Assembly (NCBI GenBank): GCA_022376515.1 | Contig: WTXI01000198.1 | Span: forward strand, 1 to 64,000 | DNA: 64,000 nt | Direction: 5' to 3' | From: Lactifluus volemus | Lineage: Eukaryota; Basidiomycota; Agaricomycetes; Russulales; Russulaceae | Part shown: in pieces, positions 20,971 to 56,053 of the stretch | Layout: every line of letters starts with the position of its first letter | Numbering within the stretch: position 1 is the first letter of the stretch | Notes under the pieces: model-generated | What the model was told of the DNA's origin: nothing | Databases searched by the model: none | The model's input: the letters and a program-made list of their open reading frames with translations, nothing else | Made by a program: the position numbers and the translations under genes

Positions 20971-23099
20971 GTAGCAGGTCTGGGGTTTCATTTATTTCCA
21001 TATGTGAGAGTGATGCAGGAGAGTCCAATGTAGGTGGCAGTTGCGGGAGTTGTGTTGCGGGAGGCCCGCTGCTGGATGTTATTATGGAACGTCGCCGGGT
21101 CGCGAGGCCGAGCAGCGCCTTTAGACCCTTGTCCATATTGATCGCCTTTTGGATCAGCCCCCGCGGCCGCTCCTCATCCTCTTCCTCTGATGACGACAAC
21201 GACGACGACGACAGCTGCCGCGGCCGCAGCCGTGGCCACCTCCACCGCCACCCGCTGCCTCCACCGCCACAGCGCCGCCTGCCGCTCCTCCGCCTCCTCC
21301 CCCCGCGGCCGCGGCGCCACCACCACCTCCCCCTCCAGCGGCCGCGGCGTCACCTCCACCTCCCCCTCCAGCAGCGGCCGCGGCCGCTCCTCCTCCTCCT
21401 CCTCCTCCTCCTCCTCCTCCTCCTCCTCATCCTCCTCCTCCTCATCCTCCTCCTCCTCCTCCTCCTCCTCCGATGACGATAGCTGCCGCTCCTCCGCCTC
21501 CGCCGGCGCCGCTCCTGCGGGCGCCACTCCTGCAGTCGCCACTGCTCCAGCCGCATCAGCTGCTGCGACATACCGGATAAGGATACTGGGGTGGCCAGAT
21601 GGACAGGGTGGGCCGCTGCCTCTCGTTCATTTATGAACGAGGTAAATACATTACTGCTTCCGTCAACATGTTGAAGAACCAGCAGATTTGGTAAAAGTTC
21701 GAGGGGCATTTCTCCATCCTCTGAATGCAGTGAACGAGAGAGTTGTCCAGAGAGCAAGTTTGGTACACAAAGTGTCTTCACATTGCTGAACGGCCTGAAA
21801 AGTTTGCGCCACTGTATTCTGTCGACCTCGTCATGCAACTGTGACAATGGGTTGTGTGACCCGTAGCTGAGTGTGAGCTTCTCCGCACCAGAGAGTACGG
21901 GCAAAAGTGTATCGAGGATTTGTACTGCGGACGCTACCTGCCAATCAAAGTCTTTGCACATGATCTGCAAGCGCAAAGGGCATTGCTGCCAGCTCTGATC
22001 AGGGGCTGTCATTAAATCAACGAAATTCCGATCAAAGGTGATCTTCACAGCGCTGAAGCTGAGGCTCTCTGATGCCTGCATGAATTCCAAGAGGCGTGGA
22101 ACGATATAAGTGAGCTGATTAAAAAACTGGATATCGAGGATGTTGAGCGTAGGCGCTCTGATCGGAGCCAAGCCTTCCAAGTAAGCGCTGACTCCTCGAT
22201 ATGAAAACACCTGAAGGTTAGGAAGAGTCACGTGCATCGCTGATGGATTCCCGACGTTGCGGTTCGGGTGAGGGGAATGAAAATGAATTCTGAGAGTTGC
22301 CAGCTGGGGCATGAGTAAAAGCCGTGCGAGTATATAATTTGGGGGGAACCAGGGGGACGGCGGGATATCCATAAGCTCGAGGTTGACAAGGCCTACGGTA
22401 GTCGTGACTAGGGGAGATCCGATTGGACGCCAAGTGGTCCACACGTGGCGTAGATTGGGCGCTTGGAATGTCCCGGGGAAGACTGGACTTGCAGAGTCTT
22501 TGGGCTGAGAGCCGATACAGATGCGTTCCAGAATGGGGAATGCTTCGTTCATGGCTGCGATGAACTTGCCTAAATTTGGGGCAGGCATCCAAAGGGCAAT
22601 CCGGTGCACACGATCACTGTGCGAGAGCGCGAGGAGTGCACCTTCTTCATCCTTTTCTGTCATCTTGCGGTTGCCATTGGTGTACCAGATGGTGAGCGGA
22701 AGGGGTGGAGAATGGGCTAGCATGTCTGCTATAGACACACCATATGTGCAAAGTAGATGGATATCCAATCGAATTGGGGATGCGAGAATAAGGTACCGCC
22801 ACTTTCGAGAAACCTGGGCCAGCTTGTACCACCAACGTTGGCGGTCCCAGCTGAACCGCATCTTCTCGCCATCTTCTTCATCTCTGATATCGAGTCGATA
22901 AAGATAGAATATATTGAGAAGGACGTCGTCATCGAGTACTTGGATAAATGAACGCAGTGTATGGTTTGTGAGCTCTATTGAATCGAAAGTTAGATGCACG
23001 AAACAGGGAGAATGGGTTTTGGGACTCAATACCTGGTGCAACTCGGCCGGGCTTCTTAATGGGGTGCAGAAGGCCAGCGGTAGACAAGGGACTGGACAT
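20971..23099 (-). pseudogene. Locus A: F-box module joined to acidic tract and ARID-gene tail
   Basis: Exon 1 is 23099-23033 (MSSPLSTAGLLHPIKKPG). A 58-bp GT-AG intron follows (23032-22975), and then a long exon. The F-box (LDDDVLLNIFYLYRLD, WWYKLAQVSRKWRYLIL) is followed by the family's leucine-rich region, with SDRVHRIALWMPAPNLGKF and later FQAPNLRHVW. The module ends at INEREAAAHPV near 21615. Beyond it come a short Gln/Arg stretch and a (GAG)n tract that reads Arg or Glu depending on frame. Then follows a piece (NMDKGLKALLG...SPASLSHMEINET, about 21150-20985) matching the last exon of the ARID genes. The joins across the GAG tract change frame, so a single product is doubtful. Likely a decaying chimera. 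Confidence 0.6.
21174..21480. repeat. GC-rich microsatellite region (CTC/CCG)
   Basis: Tandem CTC/GAG triplets (21389-21470) and CCGCGGCCGC-type blocks (21290-21390) make up this stretch. On the minus strand it gives a run of about 30 Glu in one frame or Arg in another. Slippage here explains the frame uncertainty of locus A. Confidence 0.85.
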
Positions 23100-23642
23100 G
23101 TCAGTAAGGGAGAAGTAACGGGGGTATGATAGAAGGCCAAGTAGAAGGCGGTTATTACTGAAGTTAGTGAGGTGTGGCTGTGTGCCAGTGGGCGCAAAGG
23201 TTCTCACACTTCTGCAGTCCACGAGGAGTAATTCTCCTTAATCGTGGCGATGCCTTACATTATCAACGTGTTGCAAGGCTCTTTCCTCTCCAGTTTCGGA
23301 ATTAGGCCACCTGAGCGTACCGTGAAGCCGACAAATTCGCCGTAAACAGTGTTCGACGGGCCGGGAAAGCCGTGAGGGCCAACCCATCCAATTACTTCGC
23401 AGGTTGATAGCCCACCGTATCTTTACAGTACGGTCATGCCAGGCCATCAAGAAACCTGCGAAAAACTTTTTTGGCTTGCTCGAATTCTGCAAAAAAAGGT
23501 TTGTGTAGGTTTCCTGATAAAGGGGGATGGGGACGAGTATTATCTCGGAGAAGACCGCGGGAAACTATTTCCATTTCAGAGCGTAAGTTAGTCTTGATGA
23601 GTACCGTCAAACGCAGAAAAGCCAATGAATTCTCCGAATACA

Positions 23643-24026
23643 CTAGTTGTTTGACTCTTCCAAAGTCCCACTAAAAACGGGTGCACACACGTTAAAGACC
23701 CGCTCTGACACGCTCTCTAGGAGCACATTGAAAAGCTTTCTCGTTACCCCCTCAAAGACCAGATTCTCAGTCCCGGTCTTTGAACAAAAAAAAAAGCATT
23801 GTTGCTGCAACTGTAGTTTCGTGTTGTCCAAGCAGCGTGTAAAGTTAATGCTAATTTGAGCTTCACAACTCACCTGCTCCTTCTGAAACTGAAACGCATT
23901 CCCCTCATACTGGATAAGGCCCGAGCTACCTTCGCACGGCGAATTATGTGGATTCAAAAGCACTGCAAGCTCTTGAACTAAAACCAGATATTTTCCCCTT
24001 GGGACGTGCCGACGTGGAGAGTACAC
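23643..24026 (-). pseudogene. Unidentified ORF in the duplicated spacer
   Basis: A minus-strand frame of 127 codons carries a VPRGKYLVLVQELAVL segment and a C-terminal FEGVTRKLFNVLLESVSERVF segment, with a possible intron in between (GTGAGT at about 23876). The duplicate at 38954-38574 has two fewer A residues in a poly(A/T) run and is out of frame, so at least one copy is broken. The protein is not recognised. It may be a remnant of a gene once located between two F-box loci. Confidence 0.35.
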
Positions 24027-24104
24027 GGATCACCCTCGCCGAGAAACTTGACACTCACAGTCCCATCATAGCTGGATAAGCGTCCTAACGACAAGCAGGG
24101 ACAT

Positions 24105-24185
24105 CTTTTTTTTGAATAAGAAATCCGAGTTGATATGGCGCTGCATGTTTACCACGAATAAAGATGTGCTCGACTACGTAGACTA
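24105..24185 (-). repeat. LINE-type 3' tail fragment
   Basis: A poly(T) run is followed by a sequence that aligns with the start of the LINE 3' end at 28763-28840 (shared words ATGTTTAC and GCTCGACT). It is a 5'-truncated insertion on the minus strand. The duplicate lies at 39041-39125. From about 24190 to 24780 I see no gene; this is the 3' flank of locus B. Confidence 0.5.
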
Positions 24186-24783
24186 CGCGGGCTTGAGATG
24201 AGCAGAGACATCAATTCACTCTGATCAACTCACAAATGCTGCCTTATCTTACGTACTCCACATGCGCAATCAATCTGCGTCTTTAGAAGCAAGAAATTTT
24301 GAAGATGTAGAGGTACTCTTGTCCGCCGTTAGGATATAGCCATTACAACATCGGCAAGAAATCCTTGGTATCGAAAGCAAAGAACAACAGGTAAAAATAC
24401 AGAGCAGTCAACAAAGGTAAGAAAAGGGAAACCGAGGGAAAGGTGTACGATATATACGCGTGAGATTGAAGCGGGCAGGGATCAGGGGGAATAGCACTTA
24501 AACCAGCAACAAAATGAGCACATGGTCGAAATCCAACTAAATCCACAAAGCGGGAGGAGGCAGTGATACGATAATTGAGCAGGTGATAAACACAAGACGC
24601 GGAGGGGAAAAAGAGGATTAGATAGGTACAGAGCCGGATTATCGGGGTCAGGGAAAGGCGTTGAACGATGATGGGTCCCTGTCTAAAAGGTGGAAATGGC
24701 CCATGCTTGATCCGAGGTCTCCATGAGGCCTTCCCATTTCCACCCTGACGTTTGGTGGAACATCGTATCCACTTGAAATTACT

Positions 24784-27774
24784 TTACAGACATTCGGACG
24801 TAGTACTAGGCCATACGCGTCCCTTGCCTTCACGTGGGAAACCTGGGGAGAACCTGCGTGGCCCATGTGAGGGTGGCTGATCAGACGTAGACTCTGGGCT
24901 GGGATTCGTAGACGAACCCGCAACGAGATCCGGGGTAGGTGTCTCGTCGAAGAATTCTCCAAATACATCATTCCCGAATGGATGCGGCGGTGGGAAAATT
25001 GATTGGAGGTCATTGAAGCCAAACGGTGGTACCAAGGTTGAGTCTGACGAAGGAGGATAGGTGCGAAGGATCTCGTCCAACGCATTGGACGCTGCTTCGG
25101 CCGACTCGGGATTCTCGTCGATAAATTTCGTTACGGACTCGACGAATGCGAGGACTTGATCGTCAGTCTTCACATCATTGGGTGGGCCATCCCAATCAGG
25201 TTTCACCCTCTTTGGAGACGGCGCAGTCAAAATCCCTGGTGTAGCGTTATCGACATCATCGTCACGGACCCTCTTAGCACCGCCTTTCGTATCCATCGGC
25301 GTCGAGGATCCAGGAGTAGAAGTGACAATTGATGTCGCCGTTGGTGTTTCGACACTGTTGACTTTTGCTGATACCTTTCGACGCGATGGCGGCTTCGGTT
25401 TCGTGGTAGCTTTCCCTTTGGGAGACTTCGGTGTCTGAGAAGATGGTACTGTGATTCCAGGCGTTGTTGCTTGTGGGGTCGATGTCGAGACAGCTTGGAC
25501 AGGTGGCGGGGTTAAGGTCGGGGTAGATCCAGACGCAGAGACCTGCGCTTGGGATGGTTTCTTTCTGTGTCCTTGCTGAAGAGTGGGAGCAGGAGGAGCA
25601 CGTGCTGCAGAGGCCGGCGGAGGTGGCTGATGCGGCGGCTACTGTGGGGGAGCACTGCTGCTGGGTGCCACCCCGGACGGCCGCATCCCGATGCCGAGCA
25701 CCGTCCTTAAACCCTTGTCCATATTGTCCGCCTCCTGGAACATTCCCCAAATTGTATGAAGCTCGAGTATGAGTCGGGGATTAGGCTTATTCATCTCCCC
25801 CAGCTGATATTTGGTAGAGGCCATCTGCGGTACAGCACATGACGTTAATAATGCACCTCGTAAGAACTGGAGCAACTCACCATGTGGTAAACCCTTCGAA
25901 TGACATCACCTTTTTGCATGCTGGCATAGGCGATGAGAATGTATTGTTCGATACTACCGAGAACCTTATCAAGTCGATCCAGATATCGGCCGTACTCTGC
26001 AATGTCAGACTCTGGAACCGGCGAGAGGCGAGCAACAGCAACACCATCGAATTCTGCGACGAGGACAAAGATCAGAAACAAGGAAGATGAGCGGCTTGCC
26101 AAGACCACTCACGACCGAAAGCTGCTCTCTTCTGCTCTTCGACCCATCGATGTGCATGCACCATATCTTCCAGGGTCGGTCGCCGTATCTGGATAGGACC
26201 CCCAGTTTGAGTAAGGAAAGCGTGAGTGCCACTTGGGTTGAATGGGCTCAGAATGACTGAGTGACCCGCTGCCCGTCGTTCATTTATGAACGAGGTAAAT
26301 ACGTCACCAAAACCGATTCCGTCAAGATCTTGAAGATCCAGCAGATTTGGTAAAAGTTCCAGAGGCATTTCTCCATTCTCCGAACTCAATGAACGAGAGA
26401 GCCGTCCAGAGAGTGAGTGTGATACACAAAGTTTCTTCACATTTCTGAACGGCCTGAAAAGTTTGCGCCACTGTGTTCTGTCTACCTCGTCATGCAACTC
26501 TGACAATCGATTGTGTACCACGTGGCTGAGCGTGAGATCGTCCACACCAGAGAGTACGGGCGAAAATGTATCAAGGATTTGCACCGCGGAAGCTACCTGC
26601 CAATCAAAGTCTTTGCACTCGATCTGCAAGCGCAAAGGGTATTGCGACCAGCTCCGATTAGGGGTTGCCATTAAATCAACGAAATCACAATCAAAAGCGA
26701 CCTTGACAGTGCTGAAGCTGAGGCTCTCTGATGCCTGTATGAAATGCAAGAGGCGTGGAACACTGAAAGTGAGCTGATTGAAAAACTGGACATCAAGAAT
26801 GCTGAGCCTGGGGGCTCTGATCCTCGCGAATCCTTCCAGGTAAGCGCTGACGCCTCGAAATGAAAACACGTGGAGGTTTGGGAGCGTCACGTGCGTCAGG
26901 TTGAGGGCCCGACATCACGGTTCGGGTGGGGTGTACAAAAATGAATCCTAAGAGTCTCCAGGTGGGGCATGAGTGAAAGCCGTGTGAGTATATAAGTTGG
27001 GGGAAACCAGGGGGATAGTGGGATATCCATAAGCTCGAGATTGACGAGGCCCACGCTAGTTGTGAGTAAGGGAGATCCAATCGGACGCCAAGACGTCCAC
27101 ACGTGGCGTAGATTGGGTGCTTGGAAGGTCCCGGGAAACGTTGGGCTCGTAAAATCTCTGGGCTGAGAACCGATACAGATGCGCTCCAGGGCTGGGTATG
27201 CCCCATCCATAGCCGCGATGAACTTGCATAAGTTTGGGGCTGGCATCCAAAGGGCAATACGATGCACACGATCTCGGATCGAGAGCGCGAGTAGTGCACC
27301 TTCTTCATCTTCTGCTGTCATCTCACGGTCGTCATTTGTATACCAGATTGTGAGTGGGAGGAGTGGAGAATGTGCTAGCATGTCTGCTATAGGCACATCA
27401 TATGTGCAAAGTAGATGGATATCCAGTCGAATCGGGGATGCAAGAATAAGGTGCCGCCACTTTCGAGAGACTTGAGCTAGCCTGTACCACCAACGCTGGC
27501 GGTCCCACCTGAATCGCATGAACCCACCATCTTCTTCATCCTTGATTTGAAGTCGATAGAGATAGAATATGTTGAGAAGGGTATCGTCATTGAGTATATG
27601 AATGGGTGAACACCGTGGGTTGCCTGTGATTTCTATGGAATCGAAAGTTAGCGCACGGAAGAGATTGCGGAAGAGGGATGGTGGGCTTTAGAACTCACGA
27701 CTTGGTCCATCTCGGCGGGGCTTCTTAATATGGCGCGGACGCAGACGACCAGGGGTAGACCAGTGATTGGACAT
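24784..27774 (-). pseudogene. Locus B: F-box module joined to the C-terminal half of the ARID gene
   Basis: Exon 1 (27774-27699) encodes MSNHWSTPGRLRPR, and a 66-bp intron (27698-27633) follows. Exon 2 encodes the F-box and leucine-rich region, ending FINERRAAGHSV near 26255. The frame then passes directly into the ARID-gene segment NPSGTHAFLTQ...VEEQKRAAFGR, which follows the ARID domain in locus D. Introns at 26112-26054 and 25880-25825 match those of D. The last exon encodes the KPNPR...NMDKGLRTVLG region and a Pro/Ser/Lys-rich tail. A frameshift near 26905 in the leucine-rich part and a stop at 25641-25639 interrupt it. The ARID domain itself is missing. As it stands it is a pseudogene. 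Confidence 0.8.
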
Positions 27775-27960
27775 ATCAGGGACCGGAGGGAAGGGGAGAG
27801 AAGAAACGACAGCGGTGTGATAGAAGGCTGCGCTGAAGTACAGTACTTATGTAAGCAGTTTAGCCATGGCTTGTGTGCATCAACGTGGTGATGGCGCCTT
27901 GGATCCACCCACGTGTCGGAAAAATGCCACTTAGCATATCAGTACTTGTAACATCCCCGA
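27775..27960 (-). promoter_or_regulatory. 5' region shared by F-box loci B, C, D and E
   Basis: The bases just upstream of the locus B start closely match those before C (30380-30572, opposite strand), D (45389-45600) and E (52574-52700). They include a CCCTTCCCTCC pyrimidine block and a GCGCAGCCTTCTATCACACC-like segment. Conservation of noncoding sequence shows that the F-box module was copied with its promoter. No clear TATA box was identified. Confidence 0.6.
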
Positions 27961-27962
27961 TG

Positions 27963-28080
27963 CTTGCATGAATTTCAAGAGACGATGAACAGTAAAAGTG
28001 AGATGATTGAAAAACCGGACATCAATGGGCAGGGGCTCTGATCCTCTCGCGAGGCCTTCCGAGTGAAAACTTCACGTGCC
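27963..28080 (-). pseudogene. F-box family remnant H
   Basis: About 115 bases match the leucine-rich part of the F-box family (the QFFNQLTFSVPRLLQF region, compare 26725-26840) but are truncated on both sides. A poly(T)-headed retroposon tail follows at 28088. This indicates a further lost F-box copy between B and C. Confidence 0.65.
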
Positions 28081-28086
28081 TTATAG

Positions 28087-28135
28087 TTTTTTTTTTTGAA
28101 TCCGAATTTGTATTCCGCAGCGTGTACAACGTGGC
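28087..28135 (-). repeat. Retroposon 3' tail with poly(T)
   Basis: A run of T is followed by GAATCCGAATTTGTATTCC. This is the inverse of a tail that also appears at 38170-38212 (GAATATAAATGTGGACTTAG then poly(A)). Both look like ends of a short retroposed family, either SINE-like or a truncated LINE. Confidence 0.45.
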
Positions 28136-28269
28136 ACAGAGGCGGTCGCGAAGGGTGACTAAGCGTTATGACTATCATGTACGGGAGAGAGTAGGTGATG
28201 GTTGTAAGCCATCAGTGTGTAGTGGTGTGGTGTGTTTATGTGGCGGTCGTGTGTATGTATGTATGTAGT

Positions 28270-28700
28270 TGCAGCAGGGGTGACTCTGCTGCGGAAAGAA
28301 AAAGACCCTGTGCCTCAGTCTGGCTCCCAGACCGCCCGCGGTTTATTGCAGGCCCTTGTCTCCCGTCGAAGACTAAGCACAATGAGAAAGAAAATACCAA
28401 ATCGGGCGGACAATAGAAACGCGAGGCAAACTAGCACGAAACGGAAAACAGTGAGGTACGAGACAAGCCAGAATCATGAAAGAAACAAAGAGAAAACGTC
28501 GTGCAACGCAAGGCCGCAGAGGACGGGTCTATGGCCGAGGCGTAGTCGCATCATGGCCGAGGGGGAATTGTGGCCCTATCTATCGAGATCGGGGCAGCAA
28601 AAACGAGATCTAGCTTGAAAACCGGCCGAAGAAAGCGGCAGACAGCAGTACGAGATGAGAGGAGAGAGGAGGCACGAGTTGGGCGTACGATGTTAGACAA
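28270..28700 (+). repeat. Dispersed repeat Y (inverted partner near 33.6-33.9 kb)
   Basis: Words such as CGAGGCAAACTAGCACGAAACG and GGACGGGTCTATGGCCGAGGCGT recur in inverse, diverged form at 33660-33830. The segment has no convincing reading frame and may be an old LTR. A GTAT microsatellite precedes it (28250-28266). Confidence 0.45.
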
Positions 28701-28762
28701 AAGGGGGTTTCGGGGTCAGCCGCGAGGCTAACCCTACATCGGTTCGGGATAACACGCGAGGG

Positions 28763-29760
28763 TTTTTTTTTTTTTTTTTTTGAAATCTGCATTTATAAAG
28801 CGCAATATGTTTACTGCCAACAAAGACACGCTCGACTGTCACCGCAAAGAACAACAATCTAGGTACAAAGGTGTATGTGTAGCATGTATTTAATATGGAG
28901 ATTAGGTGGGGGGTTACGAGGGGGTGGTGTGTGTGTGGCTTGGGCATGCGCCCGACGTGGCTAGCCATGGTCCTCAGGGGGTGGGTCTTGTTTCCATGGA
29001 CGGATACAGGCTTGAGAGTCTTCGATGAACTTGGCAAAGGCTTCTCCGCCTTCCTTGGTGCCAAAGAGTATGAAGGGGGATAGGTATTGGTCCGCTGTGC
29101 GGAGATGTCGGTCGCGTGCGTCTTGGAAAAGGACGCAGTGGAAGATGACGTGGGAAGGGGTCTGCAGGGCCACTCTGCCGCACTGGCAGCCGTGTGGGTC
29201 GGGGGCGCGCGGGCGGTGGCGAGCACTGTATTCCCCTGTAAAAGCGTGTTCAGTAAGGAGTCTGATGGCAGTACAGAACACTGCCCGGGGTGCCTTGGCA
29301 ATTCCCATCATAAATTCTGGCGGTGCACCTGAGGGGGGGTGATGCAAGGCTCGGTACGCGGGGTTCCTGCGGGGGTCGTCCAGCCATACTTGCTCCCACT
29401 CCTGGATGGCCTGCTGGCGCGCGGAGACGTGGAGGGCATCGATGGAGGGTGCTGAGATGTTGAGGTCTGGGGGGGCCGCTGACGCAGCCTCCACCGCTAG
29501 CGTTTGGAGGCGTTTGAGGGGCTGGAAGCTTGCTGTGCCTGGGATCCAGCGGAGCGATAGTGTTGTTGCCTCGTGGGAGTGCAGGATGCTTGCGGCCATG
29601 TCGCAGATGGCTCTGCATGCCTCCGCATGGTCGTGGCGGTCGGCGGACTGACAGTACGCCAGCACGTGGTGATCGGCGGTGTAGATGGTGGCGACACGCG
29701 AGGGTATCACATACCTGGTACTCGAGCATGAGGTAGTAGATATAGGGGCGGTGAACAACT
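28763..29760 (-). pseudogene. LINE 3' fragment: RNase H-like region and C-terminal zinc motif
   Basis: A minus-strand frame (29758-28961) encodes the C-terminal part of a non-LTR retrotransposon polyprotein. It has ADHHVLAYCQSADR...SLRWIPGTASF, which resembles the end of an RNase H domain. It then has the typical LINE tail (AIRLLTEHAFTGEYSARHRP) with a CQCG...PSHVIFHC zinc-binding motif. A 3' UTR and a run of T (poly(A) on the minus strand, about 28764-28781) follow. The RT is missing, so the insertion is 5'-truncated, as usual for LINEs. The frame is open to its natural stop, suggesting a fairly recent insertion. Confidence 0.8.
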
Positions 29761-30254
29761 CGTGACAGAACCTTCTGATTGCGAATCAAGGACCAAGGAC
29801 TCGGAGACGGTTAAACCGTTGACAGGACAGGAAACCATCGCTTCTCGCTATCACTTTTGTATCACGACTTGTACATTTGTTTATTTTGGGCCAGCTGTAA
29901 CCCTTTCTTCATTCATTGTAGAGTACTACACTGTTGTATGGCCACATTCTGGACCTATGTTTCTCATAGAAAAAATGAAAATTCATCTGTCATCCTAAAA
30001 TGCCCAGTCCTCCAAGTTGGCCAGGACACACACAGGACATGACCTTGAAGATAAAAGATGTACCGTATGTTACCAAATTGCGAAATGCAAGGACTATCGC
30101 CCATGAGAGAGGTTCGTCGTCATCACCAACATTTGTTTCCACCGTCACAGCACCTGTCGAGTCGCCTTTCAAGTTTTCACCGAGCAGGTCCCACTGCAAG
30201 GTAAACTTTAAACATCTCAGCACCCATGGCCTCAATCAACACCGGCTTTGATTT
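29742..30254 (+). repeat. Dispersed repeat X upstream of locus C
   Basis: This stretch is homologous, in reverse orientation, to 52931-53400 upstream of locus E and in part to 47604-47760. It ends in the shared word CAACACCGGCTTTGATTTCTAG (inverse at 52930 and 47604). It has no convincing gene. Its presence beside both C and E shows that the two loci were copied with their upstream DNA. Confidence 0.65.
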
Positions 30255-30572
30255 CTAGCATGTACAGTACCATGTAAACATATTCCACGAGGAAATAAAG
30301 CAGGATCCTGAGCTGCAATTATCATTTTTTTTTACCATTGGCAAGCTGCCCGTTGTACTTAGCAACTGGTATCGTTGTCTGGCAGGAAGCGCATGACGCG
30401 TCTCGCCTTTTACATTGCACGGTTCGGAACTTCGGAACATACACGCAAGGCGCCGTCACCACGTTGATGCACACAGCCATGGCTAAACTGCTTATAATAA
30501 GTGCTGTACTTCAGCGCAGCCTTCTATCACACCGCTGTCGTTTCTTCTCTCCCCTTCCCTCCGGTCCCTGAT
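30255..30572 (+). promoter_or_regulatory. 5' region of locus C
   Basis: This noncoding stretch is conserved with the regions before D and E. It contains the shared AGCAGGATCCTGAGCTGC block (about 30297) and the pyrimidine-rich CCCTTCCCTCCGG just before the ATG at 30573. A core promoter element was not recognised. Confidence 0.5.
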
Positions 30573-33099
30573 ATGTCCAATCACTGGTCTACCCCTGGTC
30601 GTCTGCGTCCGCGCCCTATTAAGAAGCCCCGCCGAGATGGACCAAGTCGTGAGTTCTAAAGCTCATCATCCCTCTTTCGCAACCTCTTCCGTGCGCTAAC
30701 TTTCGATTCCATAGAACTCACAGACAACCCACGACTTTCACCTATTCATGTACTCAACGACGACATCCTTCTCAACATATTCTATCTCTATCGACTTCAT
30801 ATCAAGGATGAAGAAGATGGTCAGAATACGAGGTTCAGCTGGGACCGCCAACGTTGGTGGTACAAGCTGGCCCAGGTTTCTCAAAAGTGGCGGCACCTTA
30901 TTCTTGCATCCCCGATTCGACTGGATATCCATCTACTTTGCACATATGATGTGCCTATAGCAGACATGCTAGCACATTCTCCACCCCTTCCACTCACAAT
31001 CTGGTATACAAATGACGACCGTGAGATGACAGCAGAAGATGAAGAAGGTGCACTACTCGCGCTCTCGATCCGAGATCGTGTGCATCGCATTGCCCTTTGG
31101 ATGCCAGCCCCAAACTTATGCAAGTTCATCGCGGCTATGGATGAGGCATACCCAGCCCTGGAGCGCATCTGTATCGGTTCTCGGCCCAGAGATTCTACGA
31201 TCCCAACGTTTCCCGGGACCTTCCAAGCACCCAATCTACGCCACGTGTGGACGTCTTGGCGTCCGATTGGATCTCCCTTACTCACAACTAGCGTGGGCCT
31301 CGTCAATCTCGAGCTTATGGATATCCCGCCATCCCCCTGGTTTCCCCCAACTTATATACTCACACGGATTTCTCTCATGCCCCACCTGGAGACTCTCAGG
31401 ATTCATTTTTGTACACCCCACCCGAACCGTGATGTCGAGATCTCGACCATGACGCACGTGACTCTTCCTAACCTTCACGAGTTTTCATTTCGAGGTGTCA
31501 GCGGTTACCTGGAAGCATTCGCGAGGATCAGGGCCCCTACACTCAGCATCCTTGATGTCCAGTTTTTCAATCAGCTCACTTTCAGTGTTCCACGCCTCTT
31601 ACAATTCATACAGGCATCAGAGAGCCTCAGCTTCTGTGCTGTTACGCTCATTTTCCATTCTTATTGGCTTGATATATTAATAATGACAACCCCTGATCAA
31701 ACTTGCTTGCAGAGCCCTCTGCGCTTGCGCATTATGTGCAGACAGCTTGATTGGCAAGTTGCATCCGCAGTGCAAATTGTCGATACTCTTTCGCCCGTAA
31801 TATCCGGTGTGGGGGAGCTCACGCTTAGCTATGTGACACACCACAGAGCGTCGCACGGTGAAGTCGACAGAACACAGTGGCGCAAACTTTTTATACCCTT
31901 CAGCAATGTGAAGAAACTTTGTGTACCAGACTCACTCTCCGAGGGACTCTCTCATTCACTCTGTTCGGAAGATGGCGAAATGCCTCTGGAACTCTTACCA
32001 AATCTGATGTTTCTGAAACCATTACTAAATCCGATGAATCTTCGACTTGCTGGTGATACATTTACCTTGTTCATAAACGAACGACAGGCAGCGGGCCATC
32101 CTGTCCAGCTGGTGGGGTCATTTCCCGGGCTGCCTGAAGATGAATTCAAAGCTCTCTTCGCCAACTTCGCCCGCACTGCGAGTATTAGAGCAACCAAAAG
32201 CGACTTCACCATCGAGGGGCGACCAATTAACCCTTGGCTTCTTCATAGAGCAGTATTCCCGCGTGGTGGCTTTGATTCTGTACGTGTCAAAAATATTTTT
32301 CTTCAACACGCTATGGATTATAATAATTCTTATGCTAGGTTTCTACAAATGACGAGTGGCCTATTATCGGTGCTGCTGTGGGTTTCCCCGCTATCGGTCC
32401 AGGGGATGCTTCTCAGCCGCCACAATGTGCGCCCCTACCAGCGCAGCGATTGCAGCAGCTATATCGTGATTCGTTGCGGCACTTCGACCAAACTTACATG
32501 CACACTGTTACGCGACATCACGGAGGTATCACGAATGTATCACAACAGCCCATTCGAACCAATATGATTCCCGTGCTGCCTGAAGATAAATTCAAGGCTT
32601 TCTTCGCTAACTTCGCCCGCACTGCAGGTATTAGAGCAACCGAACGCGACTTCACCATCGAGGGACGGCCAATTAACCCTTGGCTTCTTCATAGAGCAGT
32701 TTTCTCCCGTGGTGGCTTTGATTCCGTACGTGTCAAAAATATTTTTCTTCAACACGCTATGGATTATAATAATTCTTATGCTAGGTTTCTACAAATGACG
32801 AGTGGCCTATTATCGGTGCTGCTGTGGGTTTCCCCGCTATCGGTCCAGGGGATGCTTCTCAGCCGCCACAATGTGCGCCCCTACCAGCGCAGCGATTACA
32901 GCAGCTATATCGTGATTCGTTGCGACCCTTCGACCAAACTTACATGCACACTGTTGTGCAATTGAGGAACTCACAGTTGAGCTCGGTGCAGTCTCAGCCC
33001 CCACAACCACAGGCAAAGCCTCACCAACCCACGGAAGCGGATTATCAAGCACTTTTGTCTACCACGTCAGAATCGTCTCTTATCACCCCCACGCGATGA
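30573..33099 (+). CDS. Locus C: F-box protein fused to two ARID domains
   Basis: Exons at 30573-30648, 30715-32279, 32339-32725 and 32785-33099 keep one frame (780 aa). The introns, GTGAGT...TAG and two near-identical GTACGT...TAG, are 66, 59 and 59 bp. Residues about 30-80 form an F-box (VLNDDILLNIFYLYRLH, WWYKLAQVSQKWRHLIL). The agaricomycete F-box leucine-rich region follows to FINERQAAGHPV at about residue 510. The frame then enters an ARID domain directly (LPEDEFKALFANFART, NPWLLHRAVFPRGGF, then NDEWPIIGAAVGFP after the intron). A second, nearly identical ARID follows. A lost C in a C-run near 33086 makes it stop soon after. F-box proteins act in SCF ligases and ARID proteins bind DNA in SWI/SNF complexes; a combined role is inference. 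The frame is open, so it may be expressed. Confidence 0.75.
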
Positions 33100-33425: not shown

Positions 33426-33499
33426 AATAATGTATTCGGTTGATTGATCCAACAACATTCGCAGCATCCAATACGATAATGGGGTCGTTTCGCCTTCAT

Positions 33500-38531: not shown

Positions 38532-38573
38532 TACCGTCAAACGCAGAAAAGCCAATGAATTCTCCGAATACAC

Positions 38574-39709: not shown

Positions 39710-45388
<5,679 letters not shown>

Positions 45389-45720: not shown

Positions 45721-45739
45721 TACATGGTACTGTATATTA

Positions 45740-46550: not shown

Positions 46551-46554
46551 CGCT

Positions 46555-47390
46555 AACCTTCATCAGCCAACAGAAGTGCAACAGCCATAGGCATAACTGG
46601 CGTTTCCGAGGTCGCAGAAGGGCCCGCACCACTAGCACAATACAACCGCGCCCCACGTGGCGCGCAAGTACTTGATTTGCAGGGGCTCGACAATCTCTTG
46701 CCTCTTTCCATTCTTGTGATGCTGGCACTGGATGCACAGTGGAATGCCTCCGGCCGGGCAAAGAGTGCACGCAGCGACGTGGCCAGCGCGTGGGGCCAAC
46801 CCAGCGTGCTGGTTGTCAGCGGCGGATGTGACAAAGACTGTGCGCGTGTAGGACTTGGGAACCAGGTAGGTTTTTCTATTGCCTCTTGTCGCAAGTCTTT
46901 CTGATCTGCGTGATGGGGCAAAACGTGGATGGTTGGTTAGATTCTCACTATATGGCTTTTGTCTTTTGTAGACATACCTCAACCGTGCGCTATCTCAAAG
47001 TGCTGCTGAATCGACCAATTGTGGTGAGCGGCTCTTGCCATGACACGCTGCGAGTGTGGGATGTACAACATGGGTGAATGCTGCACGTCCTAACCGGGCA
47101 CGTGGGCAGCGTGTGCTCACTTGATGTGTGCGGGAACTGAGTTGTTAGTGAGAATTACGATTGCACTTGCTGAGTACGCCACTCTTTGTCTTTTTTTTCA
47201 GGCGCCGATTGGTGAGTAGCTCTGGGATGTGGATACAAGTGAATGTCTGCAGGTTTTCTGAGGACACTTCAACCAGATGTATGCCGTAGCGTTTGATGGA
47301 AAGATTGTAGCTTCTGGTGGCCTAGACACCACTGTGCACTTGTGGGACGTTGAGAATGTGAACACAGCGAACTATTTGGGTCCTTTGGGA
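46555..47390 (+). pseudogene. WD40-repeat pseudogene, Cdc4/Fbw7-like
   Basis: Translated pieces give WD40 signatures in order: VLVVSGGCDKD; after an intron-like gap, HTSTVRYLKVLLNRPIVVSG with HDTLRVWDVQHG; then LTGHVGSVCSLDVCGN; LWDVDTSECLQVF; and VAFDGKIVASGGLDTTVHLWDVEN. The HTSTVRxLK pattern is typical of Cdc4/Fbw7-type F-box WD40 proteins. Stops at about 47075, 47138 and 47255 and at least one frameshift make it a dead gene. No F-box was found with it, so the Cdc4 assignment rests on the WD repeats. Confidence 0.7.
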
Positions 47391-47603
47391 GCACAGGACG
47401 GCATTGATACCTGGGGCCACTGAACTTATGAGGGAATCATTTGATCAATGCCGATGAGCATGGAACGGTAGGTCAGATGCAAACAATAGAGATGACAACG
47501 CCAACGGTCAGATACTCAAACTCTCAAGCTGATGGGTCACCCGATGAGCTGCACTGCAAATTCAAGCAAGGTCGAGGCCGACACCGTCGGCGCTTCTAGT
47601 GCT

Positions 47604-48000
47604 AGAAATCAAAGCCGGTGCTGAGTCAGCGGTTTAATCGTCTCCAGTCCTATTCGCAACCATAAATGTCATCCTGGTCCTGTCACAAGTTGTTCACCGC
47701 CCGTATAATGTCGAGTGCCAGGCATGTGATAGCGAGTTTTCCCTGGCGTGTTATCCCGAACCGACTCCAAGAAATCTCAGCCCAGCGTGAAGCCACATGC
47801 CAGTTATAACGCCGTCGAGCCATCATTAGTATGTGTCGATATCAGGTGTGGTGCGGATGCCGTGCTGCCGTCGCTATTCTGAGCTCGCTGTAGACACTCT
47901 ACCATCTGCTTAAGGCGAAACGACCCCATTATCTTATTGTATGCTGCGAATGTTGTTGCATCAATCAACCAGATATCCAATCCAATTTGACTCTTTTTGG
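47604..48000 (+). repeat. Dispersed repeat X, third copy
   Basis: It begins with CTAGAAATCAAAGCCGGTG as at 52930 and contains the GTTCACCGCCCGTAT and TTATCCCGAACCGACTCCAAG segments shared with 20.35 and 53.35 kb. The sequence 47915-47985 matches 33430-33500 in inverse. Bases 48000-48200 show poly(G) and poly(T) runs and no gene. Confidence 0.6.
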
Positions 48001-48199
48001 GGGGGGGCTTTTTGGTTTTCTTTGTCTTGACTCTCAAGCTTTGCCACCTTTTTTTTTCACTTCATTTTGTTTTGCGGCCATCTCCGGTTGACGCATACAG
48101 CTGCTTACTAATCTTCCCTTATTTGTCCGAATTAGCGGCGCAGCCGCTCAAGCACTTGTATTATTAAAAATGACTCTATTTTGGCAGTAATATCGTACT

Positions 48200-51100
48200 A
48201 GATTTCAGTCTGCAACGCATTAGGCTTTCCTTGTGGTGCTACTAGGCCCTGCGGTTGCCGTTGCTGAAGCTGACTTGCCATAAGCTGTGGAGGTCGACCG
48301 GTTATCAAGTTGCGGAGCCTTGGTAGATGTAAGAGCGGCACGGAATCCGTTCTGATCTTGAGCGGTCTTTATTTTGTTCCAAAAATGCTGTGGGATACGA
48401 TGTGCCTCTAGGTCTGCACCAGATGTGTGTGCAAACCGTGGTAAAATGCTCAACGAGTGGGGGGTGATAAGAGACGATTCTGATGTGGTGGACAAAAAGT
48501 GTTTGATAATCCGCTTCCGTGGGTTAGTAAGGCTGTAACTGCGGTTGTGGGGTCTGAGACGGCACCGAGCTCAACTGTGAGTTCCTCAATAGCGCAACAG
48601 TGTGCATGTAAGTTTGGTCGAAGGGTCTCAACGAATCACGGTATAGCTGCTGCAATCGCTGTGCTGGTAGGGGCGCACATCGTGGCGGCTGAGAAGCATC
48701 CCCTAGACCGATAGTGGGGAAACCCACAGTAGCACCGATAATAGGCTACTCGTCATTTGTAGAAACCTAGTATAAGAATTATTACCATTGCGTGTTGAAG
48801 AAACCTATTTTGGAAAAGTACAGAATCAAAGCCACCACGCGAGAATACTGCTCTATGAAGAAGCCAAGGGTTAATTAGCCGCCCCTCGATGGTGAAGTCG
48901 CGTTTGGTTACTCTACTACCCGCAGTGCGGGCGAAGTTGGCGAAGAAAGCCTTGAATTTATCTTCAGGCAGCACGAGAATCATGTTGGTCTGAATGGGCT
49001 GTTGTGAAGGGGTCTGTGCAATCTGAGGCGACCGCTGTGGTGGAGTTCCAGCCATCGTCGCAAGCGCACCATTGAACGGTAGGCCATTGATGGATACATG
49101 AGGTGACATTTGGGTCATATTCGGTTGCGGTGTTGTCGAGGGAACAAAATTCTGTTGTGGAGTAGGGATACGACGCTGAGGTGCTACTTGTTTGACTGAC
49201 GCTTGGTGTAGGAATGGGTGAGGCGGTCATTTAGGTGTTGGATACTGTCGTGTGGGTCATTGACCTGCTGACGCCCCATTGACCGCTTGCTGTGGGTCAC
49301 CACTAAACTGCTATCAGAAATTGCCTATGATAAGACAAACCGAGCTCACTTTAATCTTCCCCTCCCGAAGGTGATTAATTCACAAATATGACGCATAATT
49401 TGTTTGTGTTTATCCAATTGTGCCCGTTGCTGGGGATCGGTCCTGCCAGGGGCGTAAAAAGCTTTCTCTCCCTCGGTCACAGAATACGCCAACGAATTGA
49501 AAATGTTGATAAGTTTCGATAACTGCTCGTCGGATATAGTGTTTAAACCGAGAATCTGTTGTCCCCCTTGTGAGGGGGCTTGCGATTGTGGAGCCGAGGA
49601 CTGGAGACCCGCAGAGGGAGCGGAAGGGTTGGGTTGAACAACGAGGTTATGTTGTAGTGAGCCTTGTTTTTGTCCTTGAGGAAGTCCCAGTCCAGGGGGG
49701 TGAAAGTTTTGACCCGCCCGAGCGGTGAAGCTGGCGCTGCCATTTGGCGGTTGCTGACTCTGTGTGAGGAGATTGTTCAAGGGACGACCATTTGGATGAT
49801 CCTGTGCCTGAGCGACGCGTTGGAGGGTATTCATCTGATTATTGGCCATTGCCTGGGCATGCTGCTGCGAGAGCGCAGAGATTTGTTGCTGAGTAGGGCC
49901 ACCTGCCATCTCACCAGAGGGGAAAGTTGGCGGTATATGTTGAGGAACAGCCTGTTCCTGAAATGGGACGGCTGCAGAGGCCTGCATGATAGTGAAACGC
50001 TCGCGCGCTTGCTCTCGTGTTATCAGACCCTGCGCGACTTGATTGCGCAAGGACTGTATAATCTATAAGAAAAGAAAATAATGAGTTTTTGAAAGACTGA
50101 GGCTAAGCGCGGGAGTAGAGGATCCGCTGCTGACTAAGCAGGTGATTCGGATGTCGAAACCGGTGCAGCCCACAAGCTGATGAAGAGGGAAGACATGCAA
50201 AGCATCAAAGGAACAACTTTCTCAGGGAATATGCGATGGATGAGTGAATACGTAGATACCACACCACTTTCGGCTAACGCAAGCGACGACTGATTGAAAG
50301 CTGCAGACCCACCTGGTGTTGTTGCGATACATTCATGACACCTCCATGCATCGATTCACCACCGGGACGTTGCTGTTGCTGCTGCTGTTGTTGAGGCTGT
50401 GCCTGTGGTTGTGGGGTCTGAGACGGCACCGAGCTCAACTTTGAGTTCCGAAATCGCGCAACAACGCGCATACAAGCTTGGTCGAAGGGTCGCAGCGAAT
50501 CCCGATATAGCTGCAGCAATCGCTGCGCTGCTAGGGGCGCACATCGTGGCGGCTGAGAAGCATCCCCTGGGCCGATAGTGGGGAAACCCACATTAGCACC
50601 GATAATAGGCCACTCGTCATTTGTAGAAACCTAGTATAAGAATTATTATAATCCATAGCGTGTTGAAGAAACCTATTTTAGACACGTACAGAATCAAAGC
50701 CACCACGGGAGAATACTGCTCTATGAAGAAGCCAAGGGTTAATTGGCAGCCCCTCGATGGTGAAGTCGCGTTTGGTTGCTCTAATACCCGCAGTGCGGGC
50801 GAAGTTGGCGGAGAAGGCGATGTATTTATCTTCAGGCAGCAAGGGAATCATGCTGGTCCTGACGTTGATTAATTCACGAATACGAAGCATAATTTGCTTC
50901 TGGTTATCCAGTTTTGCCCGTCGCTGGGGATCGGGCTCGCCAAGGGCGTGAAGAGTTTTCTCCCCCTCGGACACAGAACGCGCCCACTGACTGAAAACGT
51001 GGGCAAGGTGCGGTAGCGGCAAATCGGCTACACTTTGTATCCATTGGGGTAGCAGATCGACTCGGTGACCCGCTGCCCGTCGTTCATTTATGAACGAGGC

Positions 51101-52573
51101 AAATATATTACCATAACCGCCTCCGTCAGGATGTCGAAGATACCGCAGATTTGGTAAAAGTTCCAGAGGCATTTCTCCATCCTCCGAACGCAATGACCGA
51201 GAGATTCGTCCAGAGAGCGATTCTGGGACACTAAGCGCCTTCACATTGCTGAACGGCCTGAAAAGTTTGCGCCACTGTGTTCTGTCGACCTCGTCAGGCA
51301 ACTCTGACAATCGATTGTGTGCCAAGTGGATGAGAGCGAGATTGTCCACACCAGAGAGTACGGGCGAAAGTGTATCGAGGATTTGCACCGCGGAAGCTAC
51401 CTGCCAATCAAAGTCTTTGCACATGATCTGTAAGCGCAAACGGTATGGCCGCGAGCTCCGATTAGGGGCTGCTATTAAACCAACAAAATCCTTAACAAAC
51501 CCGACCTCGACAGTGCTGAAGCCGGGGCTCTCTGGTGCCTGTAGGAATTGCAAGAGGCGTGGAACACTGAAAGTGAGCTGATTGAAAAACTGGACATCAA
51601 AAACGCTGAGCCTGGGGGCTCTGATCCTCGCCAAACCTTCCAGGTAACCGCTGACACCTCGAAATGAAAACATGAGGAGGTTTGGGAGCGTCACGTGCGG
51701 AAGGGTTGAGGGCTCCACATCACGGTTCGGGTGGGGTGCATAAAAAAGAATCCTGAGAATCTCCAGGTGGGGCATGAGTGAAAGCCGTGGGAGTATATAA
51801 GTTGGGGAAAACCAGGGAGATGGCGGGATGTCCGTAAGCTCGAGCTTGACGAGGCCCATGGTAGTTGTGAGTAGGGGAGATCCAATTGGACGGCAAGTCG
51901 TCCACACGTGGCGTAGATTGGGTGCTTGGAAGGTCTCGGGAAACGATGGACTCGTAGAACCTCTGGGCCGAGAACCGATAAAGATCTGCTCCAGGATTGG
52001 GTATTCCTCATCCATAGCCGCGATGAACTTGCATAAGTTTTGGGCTGGCATCCAAAGGGCAATACGATGCACACGATCTCAGATCGAGAGGGCGAGTAGT
52101 GCACCTTCTTCATCTTCTGCTGTCATCTCATGGTCGTCGTTTCCATAACAGATTGCGAGTGGAAGGGGTGGAGAATGTGCTAGCATGTCTGCTATAGGCA
52201 CACCATATGTGCAAAGAAGATGAATATCCAGTCGAGTTGGGAATGAAAGAATAAGGTGCCGCCATTTTCGAGAAACCTGTCCCAGCTTGTACCACCAACG
52301 TTGGCGGTCCCAGTTGATCCTCGTATTCTCACCATCTTCTTCATCCTTGATATGAAGTCGATAGAGATAAATTATGTTGAGAAGGAGCTCATCATTGAGT
52401 CCTTGGATAGGTGAACGCCGTGGGTTGCTTGTGAGTCCTATGGAATCGAAAGTTAGCGCACGGAACAGCAGATGGTGAGCTTTCGGAGTCAATTCGGACT
52501 CACGACTTGGTCCACCTTGGCGAGGCTTCTTAATAGGGCGCAGATGGCCAATGGTAGACAAGTGATTGGACAT
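48200..52573 (-). pseudogene. Locus E: F-box fused to two ARID-gene copies in series
   Basis: Exon 1 is 52573-52504 and intron 1 is 52503-52438. The F-box module runs to FINERRAAGHRV near 51065. It passes in frame into the pre-ARID helix (LPLPHLAHVFSQWARSVSEGEKTLHALGE) and a first ARID (50850-50690, then 50630-50460 after a 59-bp intron). The sequence continues with a short Gln run and RPGGESMHGGVMNVS, then restarts the ARID gene near its beginning (50062-49350, NQVAQGLITREQARERF). A second ARID follows (49118-48830, then about 48750-48550). A CGA to TGA change at 52081-52079 stops the F-box part early. Further small deletions break the second half. The end at about 48210 shares its breakpoint with locus C. 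Confidence 0.8.
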
Positions 52574-52930
52574 ATCAGAGACCGGAGGGAAGGGGGGAGA
52601 AAAAATGACAGCAGTGTGATAGAAGCGCCGAAGTACTAAAGTGGTTCAGTCATGGCTGTATAGCTGATGCAAATTGAACGGGGCCACGCCTTGCTGTATT
52701 ATCGTCGTGAATCCAGGCAGAGGCAGCAACTACGCTGAACTCGAACAACGACAAAATAAAACACCCACCCGCGTGTCAGTATATGTTCCGAAACGTGCTA
52801 GGTAAACAGCGAGACACGGCAAGAGACACGGTACGAGTCACAACGGCTAGCTGATAATGGTAAAAAATTAACAAATACTGTAGCAGCTCAGGATCCTGCT
52901 TTGTTTCTATATGGAATATGTTTATATTCT
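52574..52930 (-). promoter_or_regulatory. 5' region of locus E
   Basis: Conserved with the regions before B, C and D over about 150 bases next to the start, and again at the GGATCCTGCTTTGTTTC block near 52890. No TATA box was recognised. Confidence 0.5.
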
Positions 52931-53640
52931 AGAAATCAAAGCCGGTGTTGATTAAGACCCATGGGTGCTGAGATGTTTCAAGATTACGTGACAGACGATG
53001 GACTGGTCCAATTTACGGTACTTTTCTCCGCCCTCGCATTTCGCAATTTGGTATACGGTACATCTTTTATCTTCAAGGTCATTTCCTGTGTGTGTCCTGG
53101 TCAACTTGGAGGACTGGGCATGTTAGGATGACACATGAATTTTCGTTTATTCTATGAGAAACATAGGTCTAGAATGTGGCCACCCAACAGTGTACTCTAC
53201 AATGAATGAAGGAAGGATTACAGCTGATCCAAAATAAACAAACGTACAAGTCGCGATACAAAAAATGATAGCGAGAAGTGATGAGTTCCTATCCTGTCAG
53301 CGGTTTAGTCGTCTCCGCGTCCTTATGGTCCTTGATTCGCAATCAGAAGGTCCTGTTCACCGCCCGTATATTCACCCAATGCTCGAGTACCAGGCATGTG
53401 ATAGTGAGTTTCCCCTCGCGTGCTATCCCGAACCGACTCCAAGCAATTGTCAGCCCAACGTGAATTCCACATGCCAGTGTAATGCCATCGAGCTATCGTT
53501 GTGTCGATGTGAGGTGTGATGCCGATGCCGTGCTGCCGTTTCTATTCTGAGCTCAGAAGTCTACTTCATGCCAGTATTGTGGTAGTACCCGAGATGTCCT
53601 CTTGAAATCCACGATGCAATCGAACCAAGCCACCTGATCC
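52931..53640 (-). repeat. Dispersed repeat X, copy upstream of locus E
   Basis: The most complete uninterrupted copy seen here. It contains the segment in which the 4.65-kb transposon landed in the copy at 15.5-20.4 kb and so approximates its empty site. No coding capacity was identified. Confidence 0.65.
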
Positions 53641-53947
53641 CTCCCAAACATTCACATCCGCACCACGCCTCGTCTACGACAGTTACTGTAGCACATGAAA
53701 ATGTTTCTCCGCCAATGCATCCCTCAGGGCTATGACATATGCTGACGGCCGCGGGAATTCATATCTTGTAGATCCTTGACAACGAGGTGCTCCGCCAAGT
53801 CATAAAGTTCACAGAGTGCGGTGATAGACAGGTGGGGTGTGCCAGATCTCTTCCTTGGAATGGGGTATGGGGAAAAAAGAAAAGGGACGAGTGTCTATGT
53901 CGTGTAACCAGAGCCACACTGAAAGGCCGTGGCAGGGTGGCGTCAAA
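53641..53947 (-). pseudogene. BTB-like remnant downstream of locus F
   Basis: The minus-strand sequence around 53830-53760 encodes LAEHLVVKDLQDMNSRG in short frames, matching the remnant after locus A (20810-20900). Stops occur in between. It is the 3' flank of the ARID gene and was copied together with it to locus A. Confidence 0.4.
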
Positions 53948-56053
53948 CTAAGTTTCATCTACCTCCATAGGTGAGGGTGATGCAGGAGAATCCAAGGTAG
54001 GAGACGGTTGCGGCGCTTGTGGTGCAGCAAGACCGCTGCTGGATGCTATGGACGGTCGTGGCGTCGCAAGGTGGAGCACGGTCTTTAGACCGTTGTCCGT
54101 ATTGATGGCCTCTTGGATCATTCCCAGAATTGTATGCAACTCCAGTATGTATCGTGGATTCGGTTTGTCCATCTCTTCCAGCTGAACTCTGGTAGAGGCC
54201 ACCTGTCAAAAACAAGTCAAATCACGGAAAACCTGGGCCATCCATCTTAGACCTACCATGGTGTACAACCTCCGAACGATATCATCTCTCTTCAAGGTGG
54301 CATGCGCAATGTGAATGTATCGCTCGATATGAGCAAGAACCATATCAAGACGATCCAAACTTTGGCGGTACTCTGGAATATCGGATTCTGGAACCGAGTA
54401 GCCAGAAACACCATCGAGTTCTGCACAACCAGTCAGAAAGGCAGGACACATTGTGTGATTAGGTCGCTCACGACTAAAGGCTGCCACTTTTTGCTCTTCG
54501 ATCCATCGCTGTGCAAACGCGATCTCTTCCCGCGTCGGTTGCCATATCGGCACAAGGCCCGCAGAAGCCCGACGGTTCATGCCACTGCCAATGGGATTCG
54601 ATAACACTCCCCCTCCCTGACCCAGCGCTTCACCATTGAGACTAGTACTAGTACTCGTCGAGGGCACGCCAGAGGCATCTATCGACTGGGCTGTCGACAA
54701 CCGGACGAGCTGCTGACTGATGCCATTGTTAGACACCTGACTCTGCCGCTGCAGTTGTCGAAGCTGATGAATGGCCATGAGCTGTGGAGGAGGTCGAGAT
54801 GCAAGACCAGCTTGAGCTTCGCGCTGTAAGAAGTCCCTCCGGCCCTCCACAAACGCAATAATGTTCTGTGGAACCCGGCGTGCTTCTAGCTCTGCGCGAG
54901 ATGTATGCGCGAACCGCAATAACATGTGTATTAATTCGTTGGCCACAGGAGACGATTGAGATATGGCGGCCAAAAGCGTTCGTTGGGCTAGCTGCGGTTG
55001 CGGCCGTGGCGGGAGCTGAGAAGGTAGGGGGGCCAAGCCTAGTGAGCGCCTCAATCTTATGATGCTGTGAACGTAGACCTGATCGAAGAGTCGCAAGGAA
55101 CCGTTATATAGCTGCTGCAGTCGCTGCGCTATCACGGGCGCACACCGTGGTGGCTGAGAAGCATCACCCGGATGAACGGAGGGGAACCCCACAGTGCAGC
55201 CGATGATAGGCCATTCGTCATTCGTAGTAACCTAATACACCAGACTTTTAATCAAAGGCGTGATCAGACCAACTAGTATGGACATACAGGGACAAAACCG
55301 CCTCTGGAAATCACTGCTCTATGCAGAAGCCAGGGGTTAACTAGTCGGCCCTCGATGGTGAAGTCGCGTTCGCTGATCCTAATACCTGCAGAACGGGAAA
55401 ATTTGACGAACAAATCCTTGAATCGATCTTCTGGCAGCACGGGAAGCTTGTTGATCCGAATGGGGGGCTGTTGCGAAGGGGGCGAATGTGTCATCTGCGG
55501 CGACTGCTGCGATGGAGCACCAGACGTCGTCGCGACAGCGCCACTGGTAGAAGGCAGGCTACTACTGGCAGATGCCTGAGGTGAAGGTGGCATCGCCGGC
55601 GAGGGTACAGAGATATTCCGAGCGGCTAGCATTGAAAGTCTCGTCCTAGGTTGTTGCTGTTGTTCTGTCCCTAGCCACCATGTCAAATCTACTGCTTGCT
55701 GCGTATTCGCAGTGTCGTCTCCACTAAAGCTCGCCACACAGATAAGATCAGAGAGAAAGACGAAGTGGCGAGTGAGGCAAGACGGACCTTGTGCCAGCTC
55801 CGGCTGTCCTCGCGATGACCGTTTCCCGGATCCGATGGATGAGTCGTTTCTGGGCGTCGAGCTTTGCGAGAAGAGCCTGTCGGTTCGGATCGGCCTGAGG
55901 ATCGGTAGAAATATTCTTCTCCGCCTCGGACACAGAGCGCGTCAACTGATGAAAGAGGTGGACCAGATTGGGTATCGGTGCGGCGGAGATGTCAGAGAGT
56001 TGTCCGTGATGAGGATCCATTTGGGAAGGAAATGAGAGAGATGGAGTGGACAC
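53948..56053 (-). CDS. Locus F: diverged ARID (SWI1-like) gene without F-box module
   Basis: Exons inferred from homology to D are 56053-55788 (start uncertain), 55729-55288, 55231-54472, 54420-54257 and 54202-53948. The product has the pre-ARID helix (IPNLVHLFHQLTRSVSEAEKN) and a low-complexity Ser/Pro/Gln segment. It has the ARID domain (LPEDRFKDLFVKFSRSAG, NPWLLHRAVISRGGF, NDEWPIIGCTVGFP, IAQRLQQLYNGSL), then SIDASGVPSTS and RWIEEQKVAAFSR. The last exon (KPNPRYILELHTILGMIQ) ends at MEVDET. The long basic tail of D is absent. It differs from D at many residues, but no break was found in the ARID domain. Upstream of 56053 (56060-56280) a further exon is likely. It may be closest to the parental gene. 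Confidence 0.7.

Follow-up and report, generated by a model that had tools for sequence, protein, structure and literature searches.

In the basidiomycete Lactifluus volemus (assembly GCA_022376515.1, comprising 628 contigs and 62.4 Mb), a cluster of genes was found in which a body of the F-box/leucine-rich repeat (LRR) type runs into segments of SWI1, the ARID-containing subunit of the SWI/SNF chromatin remodelling complex, and the sequence suggests that these are real chimeric genes, some of them coding-competent, and hardly an accident of assembly. The cluster lies within positions 1-64,000 of contig WTXI01000198.1 (hereafter C110), a stretch referred to as the window. A preliminary description of this DNA had proposed five F-box modules, A to E, joined to segments of one ARID gene family. 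F-box-family open reading frames were confirmed at B (~26.25-27.8 kb), C (30.5-32.1 kb), D (43.9-45.4 kb) and E (51.05-52.6 kb), as were related SWI1/ARID segments at 23.6-26.25, 32.1-33.4, 38.5-43.8, 48.2-50.4 and 53.7-56.3 kb, and the reading frames of B, C, D and E continue across the join into SWI1 in its genuine frame, whereas in A a stop intervenes. The four fusions of the window are as follows.

39710..45388, minus strand: D, F-box::SWI1 gene, predicted 1,713 amino acids (aa), seven exons, GT..AG introns positioned from homology with the parent SWI1 gene; open to 39710
45388-45313, 45246-43568, 43306-42597, 42549-42051, 42002-41117, 41057-40888 and 40831-39710, minus strand: exons of D
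43833..43870, minus strand: bridge of D, from join alignments; F-box part ends at 43,871, SWI1 exon 1 starts at 43,832 (parent residue 36)
30573..33099, plus strand: C, F-box::ARID::ARID gene, predicted 780 aa; exons 30573-30648, 30715-32279, 32339-32725 and 32785-33099; join at 32,113-32,122
23600..27774, minus strand: B, F-box body followed by SWI1 from the end of exon 4 through exons 5-6; join at 26,250-26,256
50274..52573, minus strand: E, F-box body and SWI1 exon 2, then pieces of exons 3 and 4; join at ~51,039-51,045

A fifth in-frame fusion, G, is located at C112:821,241-823,292, encodes 661 aa, joins SWI1 exon 6 and ends at the stop position of the parent. B, C, D and G all start with a small exon, a 66-base intron (GTGAGT ... 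CTAAC ... ATAG) and a long exon carrying the LRR body, while E can do without such an intron. The body terminates in a near-constant motif, FINERxAAGHPV, and in B, C, D and E similarity to an unfused relative ends inside one and the same 13-base stretch. The SWI1 segment is entered in the SWI1 frame at differing points, namely exon 1 in D, exon 2 in E, exon 3 in C and exon 4 in B, with a junction spacing that ranges from a slight overlap in B, through gaps of ~5-8 bases in E (F-box part to 51,045, SWI1 from ~51,039) and C (F-box part to 32,113, SWI1 from 32,122), to the 38-base bridge of D. The first ~19 bases of this bridge resemble the start of the bridge in G, and D and G may thus derive from a single join.

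The intact parent SWI1 gene resides at C601:16647-20951, encodes 1,277 aa in six exons with every intron being GT..AG, and matches SWI1-like ARID proteins of Lactifluus subvellereus, Multifurca and Lactarius; a segment beginning FDPLHVF was rejected as an exon, its position being that of intron 1. The 4.6 kb at C601:11100-15700, ~1 kb upstream of the parent, occurs once in the assembly. When set beside SWI1/ARID1 (BAF250), D is alike in its ARID domain, its intron positions and the nearly whole L. volemus SWI1 that it carries (parent residue 36 to ~1,213 of 1,277, with exon 3 and exon 4 frames showing 100% and 99% identity to C601), and it differs in that the first 35 residues are replaced by an F-box protein of ~480 residues and the last 64 or so are lost through a frameshift in the final exon. 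Such a near whole-length relation is seen in D only, whereas B, C, E and G hold only parts of SWI1. A retrocopy origin was rejected, since introns are retained. Recombination between CAG tracts is a possible origin of the joins; by eye, only the internal exon 4-to-polyglutamine (polyQ) join of E and the join of P0127, a Lactarius protein described below, fall in Q-rich stretches.

As to domain identity, the ARID is above the Pfam cut-off of 24.1 bits in C (73.3 bits, two stretches together), in the counterpart of C on contig C113 (31.4) and in D (39.6). The structure model of the body, built from an alignment whose input was 50 of 120 listed related proteins, adopts an LRR fold and corresponds to an LRR substrate domain as in FBXL proteins; its matches include FBXL2, COI1, D3, FBXL17 and Skp2, although such FBXL-type matches tie with other LRR proteins and the structural matches are weak (TM-score 0.21-0.35). 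The F-box family PF12937 is matched by 27 of 51 alignment members at E<=10, the best at 1.3e-4. Using the body profile, a sequence search of the PDB gave no match at E<=0.1, and a plasmid collection searched with the body likewise gave none, as expected.

A random offset within SWI1 falls in the SWI1 frame 29.6% of the time; the open in-frame joins B, C, D, E and G give a count of 5/5 (p 0.0023). There is in addition a locus termed X0 (C113:1649), in which a piece of SWI1 exon 4 lies in the frame of the body, but behind a stop; a related degraded copy containing stops is present at C601:3.5 kb. If X0 is counted as a failure the result is 5/6 (p 0.010), and 5/7 if A is added (p 0.027), while treating D and G as one event gives 4/4 (p 0.0076) or 4/6 (p 0.067). 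All of these p values are optimistic, because B to E were chosen by the earlier reader for being in frame.

The contiguity of the F-box and ARID parts, on which the preliminary description had made its proposal depend, could be assessed by means of contig C113, which we infer to be allelic to the window. C113:1-32903 aligns to window positions 20.3-28.1 kb (94-96% identity) and 48.3-57.8 kb (97.2%), and between these blocks the two contigs differ in content and orientation. The joins of B, C and E are present on both C110 and C113, and that of G on a third contig; the D join is found on one contig only. In the case of C, the counterpart on C113 has the same join and a predicted length of 624 aa with one ARID, and the frame is kept on both contigs even though their bodies are separated by a synonymous divergence (dS) of 0.094.

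Among the best 120 of 1,734 relatives of the C chimera, SWI1 tails occur in two, P0001 and P0005, both sourced from the Joint Genome Institute (JGI) and encoded on contigs of 2,556 and 3,081 bases, respectively. P0001 carries the E join, and its residues agree with those of E at 124 of 125 tail positions and 460 of 487 body positions; P0005 carries the C join, agrees with C at 47 of 59 tail positions and 269 of 375 body positions, and has a body outside the clade of fused genes. When the SWI1 part of P0001 served as query, four proteins emerged from 99 candidates, being P0001, P0005 and two SWI1 fragments without F-box body. A SWI1 query returned ten proteins, one of which has the LRR body of the family before SWI1, namely P0127 of Lactarius indigo (735 aa; body related, hhalign 99.9%; ARID match of its SWI1 segment 38.9 bits). 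In this model LRR body and ARID occur without F-box. There are hints that joins between this F-box family and SWI1 may have recurred in Russulaceae.

A tree was built from 27 rows, to which C110, C113 and C112 contributed nine bodies and the set of 120 listed proteins another 18; in it, P0001 and the fused bodies of L. volemus group together in a single clade (support 95/88). This statement is valid for the sampled rows, which do not include the frameshifted window B body, the C113 A body, X0, the C601:3.5 kb copy or a relative at C618:1,015,054-1,016,287. The latter, a body 84-86% like that of D, runs off the contig end and may be a further fused member. The nearest unfused row, P0002, has a tail rich in Q, E and R, and among ten loci of other family members the body end is readable at seven, of which five have Q/E/R-rich tails (85-120 aa; two of these loci are the genes of P0006 and P0026) and two have short ones; given these relatives, the tail of the fused genes was probably replaced. 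Zinc-finger-like tails were also observed in the relatives P0053 (by eye), P0066 and P0116 (Pfam, below cut-off).

Selection was examined through the ratio of nonsynonymous to synonymous rates (dN/dS) and through counts of the two kinds of change. Whole-copy dN/dS against the parent is 0.29 for D, a value that takes in the poorly aligned polyQ exon 1, versus 0.56-0.62 for five copies (two E-tandem, one C113 tandem and two B) and 0.55-0.58 for the two alleles of the diverged copy F (see below). Over exons 2-6, D has ~29.5 nonsynonymous to 30.5 synonymous changes as compared with 161:90 in three pooled copies (B h1, the C110 E tandem and the C113 tandem only), with p between 0.027 and 0.038 depending on rounding. 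G yields 0.31 against the parent over 163 codons, and the ARID halves of C and E give 0.15-0.34. Pairwise values for the F-box bodies range from 0.24 to 0.79 and are below 0.55 in 33 of 36 pairs.

The remaining SWI1-like and F-box features of the window are listed here.

21350..23104, minus strand: A, F-box-family gene with a low-complexity tail; not an open SWI1 fusion
20634..21163, minus strand: SWI1-like fragment (exon 6) close to A; within the window it lies in the frame of A, behind a stop (frames 23203-21350 and 21349-20696)
48206..50402, minus strand: additional SWI1 copy immediately downstream of E, from exon 1 polyQ to exon 4; stops in exons 3 and 4
53693..56300, minus strand: F, SWI1-like copy that has diverged from the parent (dS ~0.76) and lacks an F-box

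A was rejected as an open fusion on account of the stop before its SWI1-like piece in the window and of the situation on C113, where A closes with a Q/E/R-rich tail, its frame ending at C113:6549, ~1 kb before the SWI1-like piece. The old copy F is also present at C113:28724-31403, where it is partly open (427 aa). Elsewhere in the assembly there is a dispersed repeat (loci L034-L037 at C89:47358, C1:1902196, C65:181 and C20:44107) with ~99% similarity between copies across as much as 3 kb. It includes 519 bases of SWI1 exon 2 that are 91-92% identical to D, so that some mobile element carries SWI1 pieces about as well; copia-like and BED-like frames are seen nearby (by eye). The window itself contains frames like a Ty1-copia polyprotein at 1617-6051 (by eye) and transposase-like frames at 18599-19904 (weak DDE_3 match, E 0.0017, under cut-off), and beside the cluster a VTT-domain-like frame (56370-57323, below cut-off) and a Fungal_trans frame (59766-60398, above cut-off). 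Rfam and tRNA scans of the whole window gave no matches.

The explanation that we tentatively favour is that one F-box/LRR lineage took up SWI1 segments and that the predicted products of D, C and G bridge the Skp1-cullin-F-box (SCF) ubiquitin ligase and SWI/SNF. One lineage of a large Lactifluus F-box/LRR family would have lost its Q/E/R-rich tail and gained SWI1 segments through duplication and breakage at the DNA level, not by reverse transcription, as the introns are kept. At least D, C and G would be translated, their F-box end would bind Skp1/cullin, and their SWI1-derived end (the ARID in C and D, the C-terminus in G) would dock on SWI/SNF or its partners, such that the hybrid might mark SWI/SNF partners for ubiquitylation or compete with normal SWI1. 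The preliminary description had envisaged a chromatin-bound ubiquitin ligase or a poisoning of SWI/SNF. In favour of the explanation are the joins in the SWI1 frame, the intact splice sites and low dN/dS of D, the open frame and low dN/dS of G, the preserved frame of C on both contigs, the single clade of fused bodies, the dN/dS values of the F-box bodies, the joins in P0001, P0005 and P0127, and the LRR fold of the body. A number of observations weigh against it. The F-box motif of D is weak against Pfam (E 0.12; 12.6 bits, curated cut-off 24.3), and the F-box region is low in confidence in the structure model. D is present on C110 and not on C113:1-32903; the window B allele is frameshifted in the F-box body, with C113 B being open for 650 aa and then reaching a stop in exon 6; and the window E allele has an in-frame stop in the F-box body that the C113 allele lacks (1,003-aa model). 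The joins may not be independent, as the D/G bridge is shared in part and the fused bodies are one clade. The P0127 model begins inside the body and may represent two genes merged by the annotator, and P0131, a public protein on a contig as long as C113, starts as SWI1 alone. Concerning selection, D exons 2-5 alone (10:11) do not differ significantly from the pooled copies (p 0.16), and between copies the SWI1 parts of E, B and C look near neutral, with nonsynonymous to synonymous counts of 10:3 in E exon 2, 7:1 and 12:2 in B exon 5, and 9:3 in the ARID of C1 versus C2. Low values against the parent can moreover be inherited, because two truncated tandem copies show no amino-acid change in the ARID half, and part of the low dN/dS of D may have this origin.

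It is also plausible, if somewhat more doubtful, that only the F-box body is selected and that the tail beyond its constant end is free, the SWI1 pieces being passive, tolerated and without role. Body ends could be located in 114 of the best 120 relatives, 94 of which have tails of 2-19 aa and 20 of which have tails of at least 20 aa, the longer ones including Q/E/R-rich, C2H2-like and unknown types; this freedom of the tail, the near neutrality of the SWI1 parts of B, C and E between copies, and the absence of stops from 87 of the 92 genomic body matches scored out of 1,645 candidates all fit such a view. For a passive tail, however, an out-of-frame join should be just as good, whereas each of the five open joins is in the SWI1 frame, and the tails of D and G look constrained relative to the parent. 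Rather unlikely for the cluster as a whole, though a strong rival especially for B and E, is that the chimeras are decaying by-products of rearrangement in a repeat-rich F-box/SWI1 array. The broken window alleles of B and E, the truncated SWI1 copies with stops, X0 and the C601:3.5 kb copy with their stops, the lack of D on the allelic contig, the differing order and orientation of C110 and C113 and the dispersed repeat with its SWI1 piece are in keeping with decay, whereas the seven-exon D is open, C is open on two diverged contigs and G is open on a third.

A broader proposal, of a fast-evolving Russulaceae F-box platform in which a fixed LRR body with a swappable tail repeatedly captured SWI1 and supplied SCF adaptors targeting or decoying SWI/SNF, is considered improbable. 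Very improbable indeed is the idea that D amounts to a second SWI1 gene under an F-box promoter with an incidental F-box part: the extent of SWI1 in D and the near identity of exons 3 and 4 to C601 speak for it, but the partial SWI1 segments of C, E, B and G are left unexplained. Least credible of all is an assembly artefact, for which the confinement of the D join to one contig could be cited, and against which stand the occurrence of the B, C and E joins on both C110 and C113, the E- and C-type joins in the two JGI-sourced proteins and G on its separate contig.

Compared with known systems, the chimeras resemble FBXL proteins (FBXL2, Skp2, COI1/TIR1 and D3) in combining an N-terminal F-box-like segment with an LRR fold, and differ from them by the C-terminal SWI1 segment and by an F-box motif that is under the Pfam cut-off. 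Plant nucleotide-binding leucine-rich repeat (NLR) proteins with integrated domains are comparable in that a family built on a repeat domain incorporates segments of other proteins of the host; they belong to another protein family than these chimeras, for which a decoy role is putative. SCF beta-TrCP is reported to act on human ARID1A (PMC6567580), a case in which an SCF ligase and the ARID1 subunit of SWI/SNF are likewise connected, although there two separate proteins and a phosphodegron are involved and here one predicted chain. In Flammulina, 210 F-box genes have been reported, 80 of them developmentally expressed (PMC7567395). A narrow search of literature listings retrieved no described family of F-box plus SWI1/ARID make-up and nothing on the L. 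volemus genome or on an F-box::SWI1 fusion. If translated, the chimeras would be natural single-chain links between the SCF ubiquitin ligase and SWI/SNF, and would represent a gene family that alters its tail by capture of parts of a chromatin-remodelling gene, while haplotypes carrying different hybrids would provide a natural experiment on the retention and loss of newly formed chimeras.

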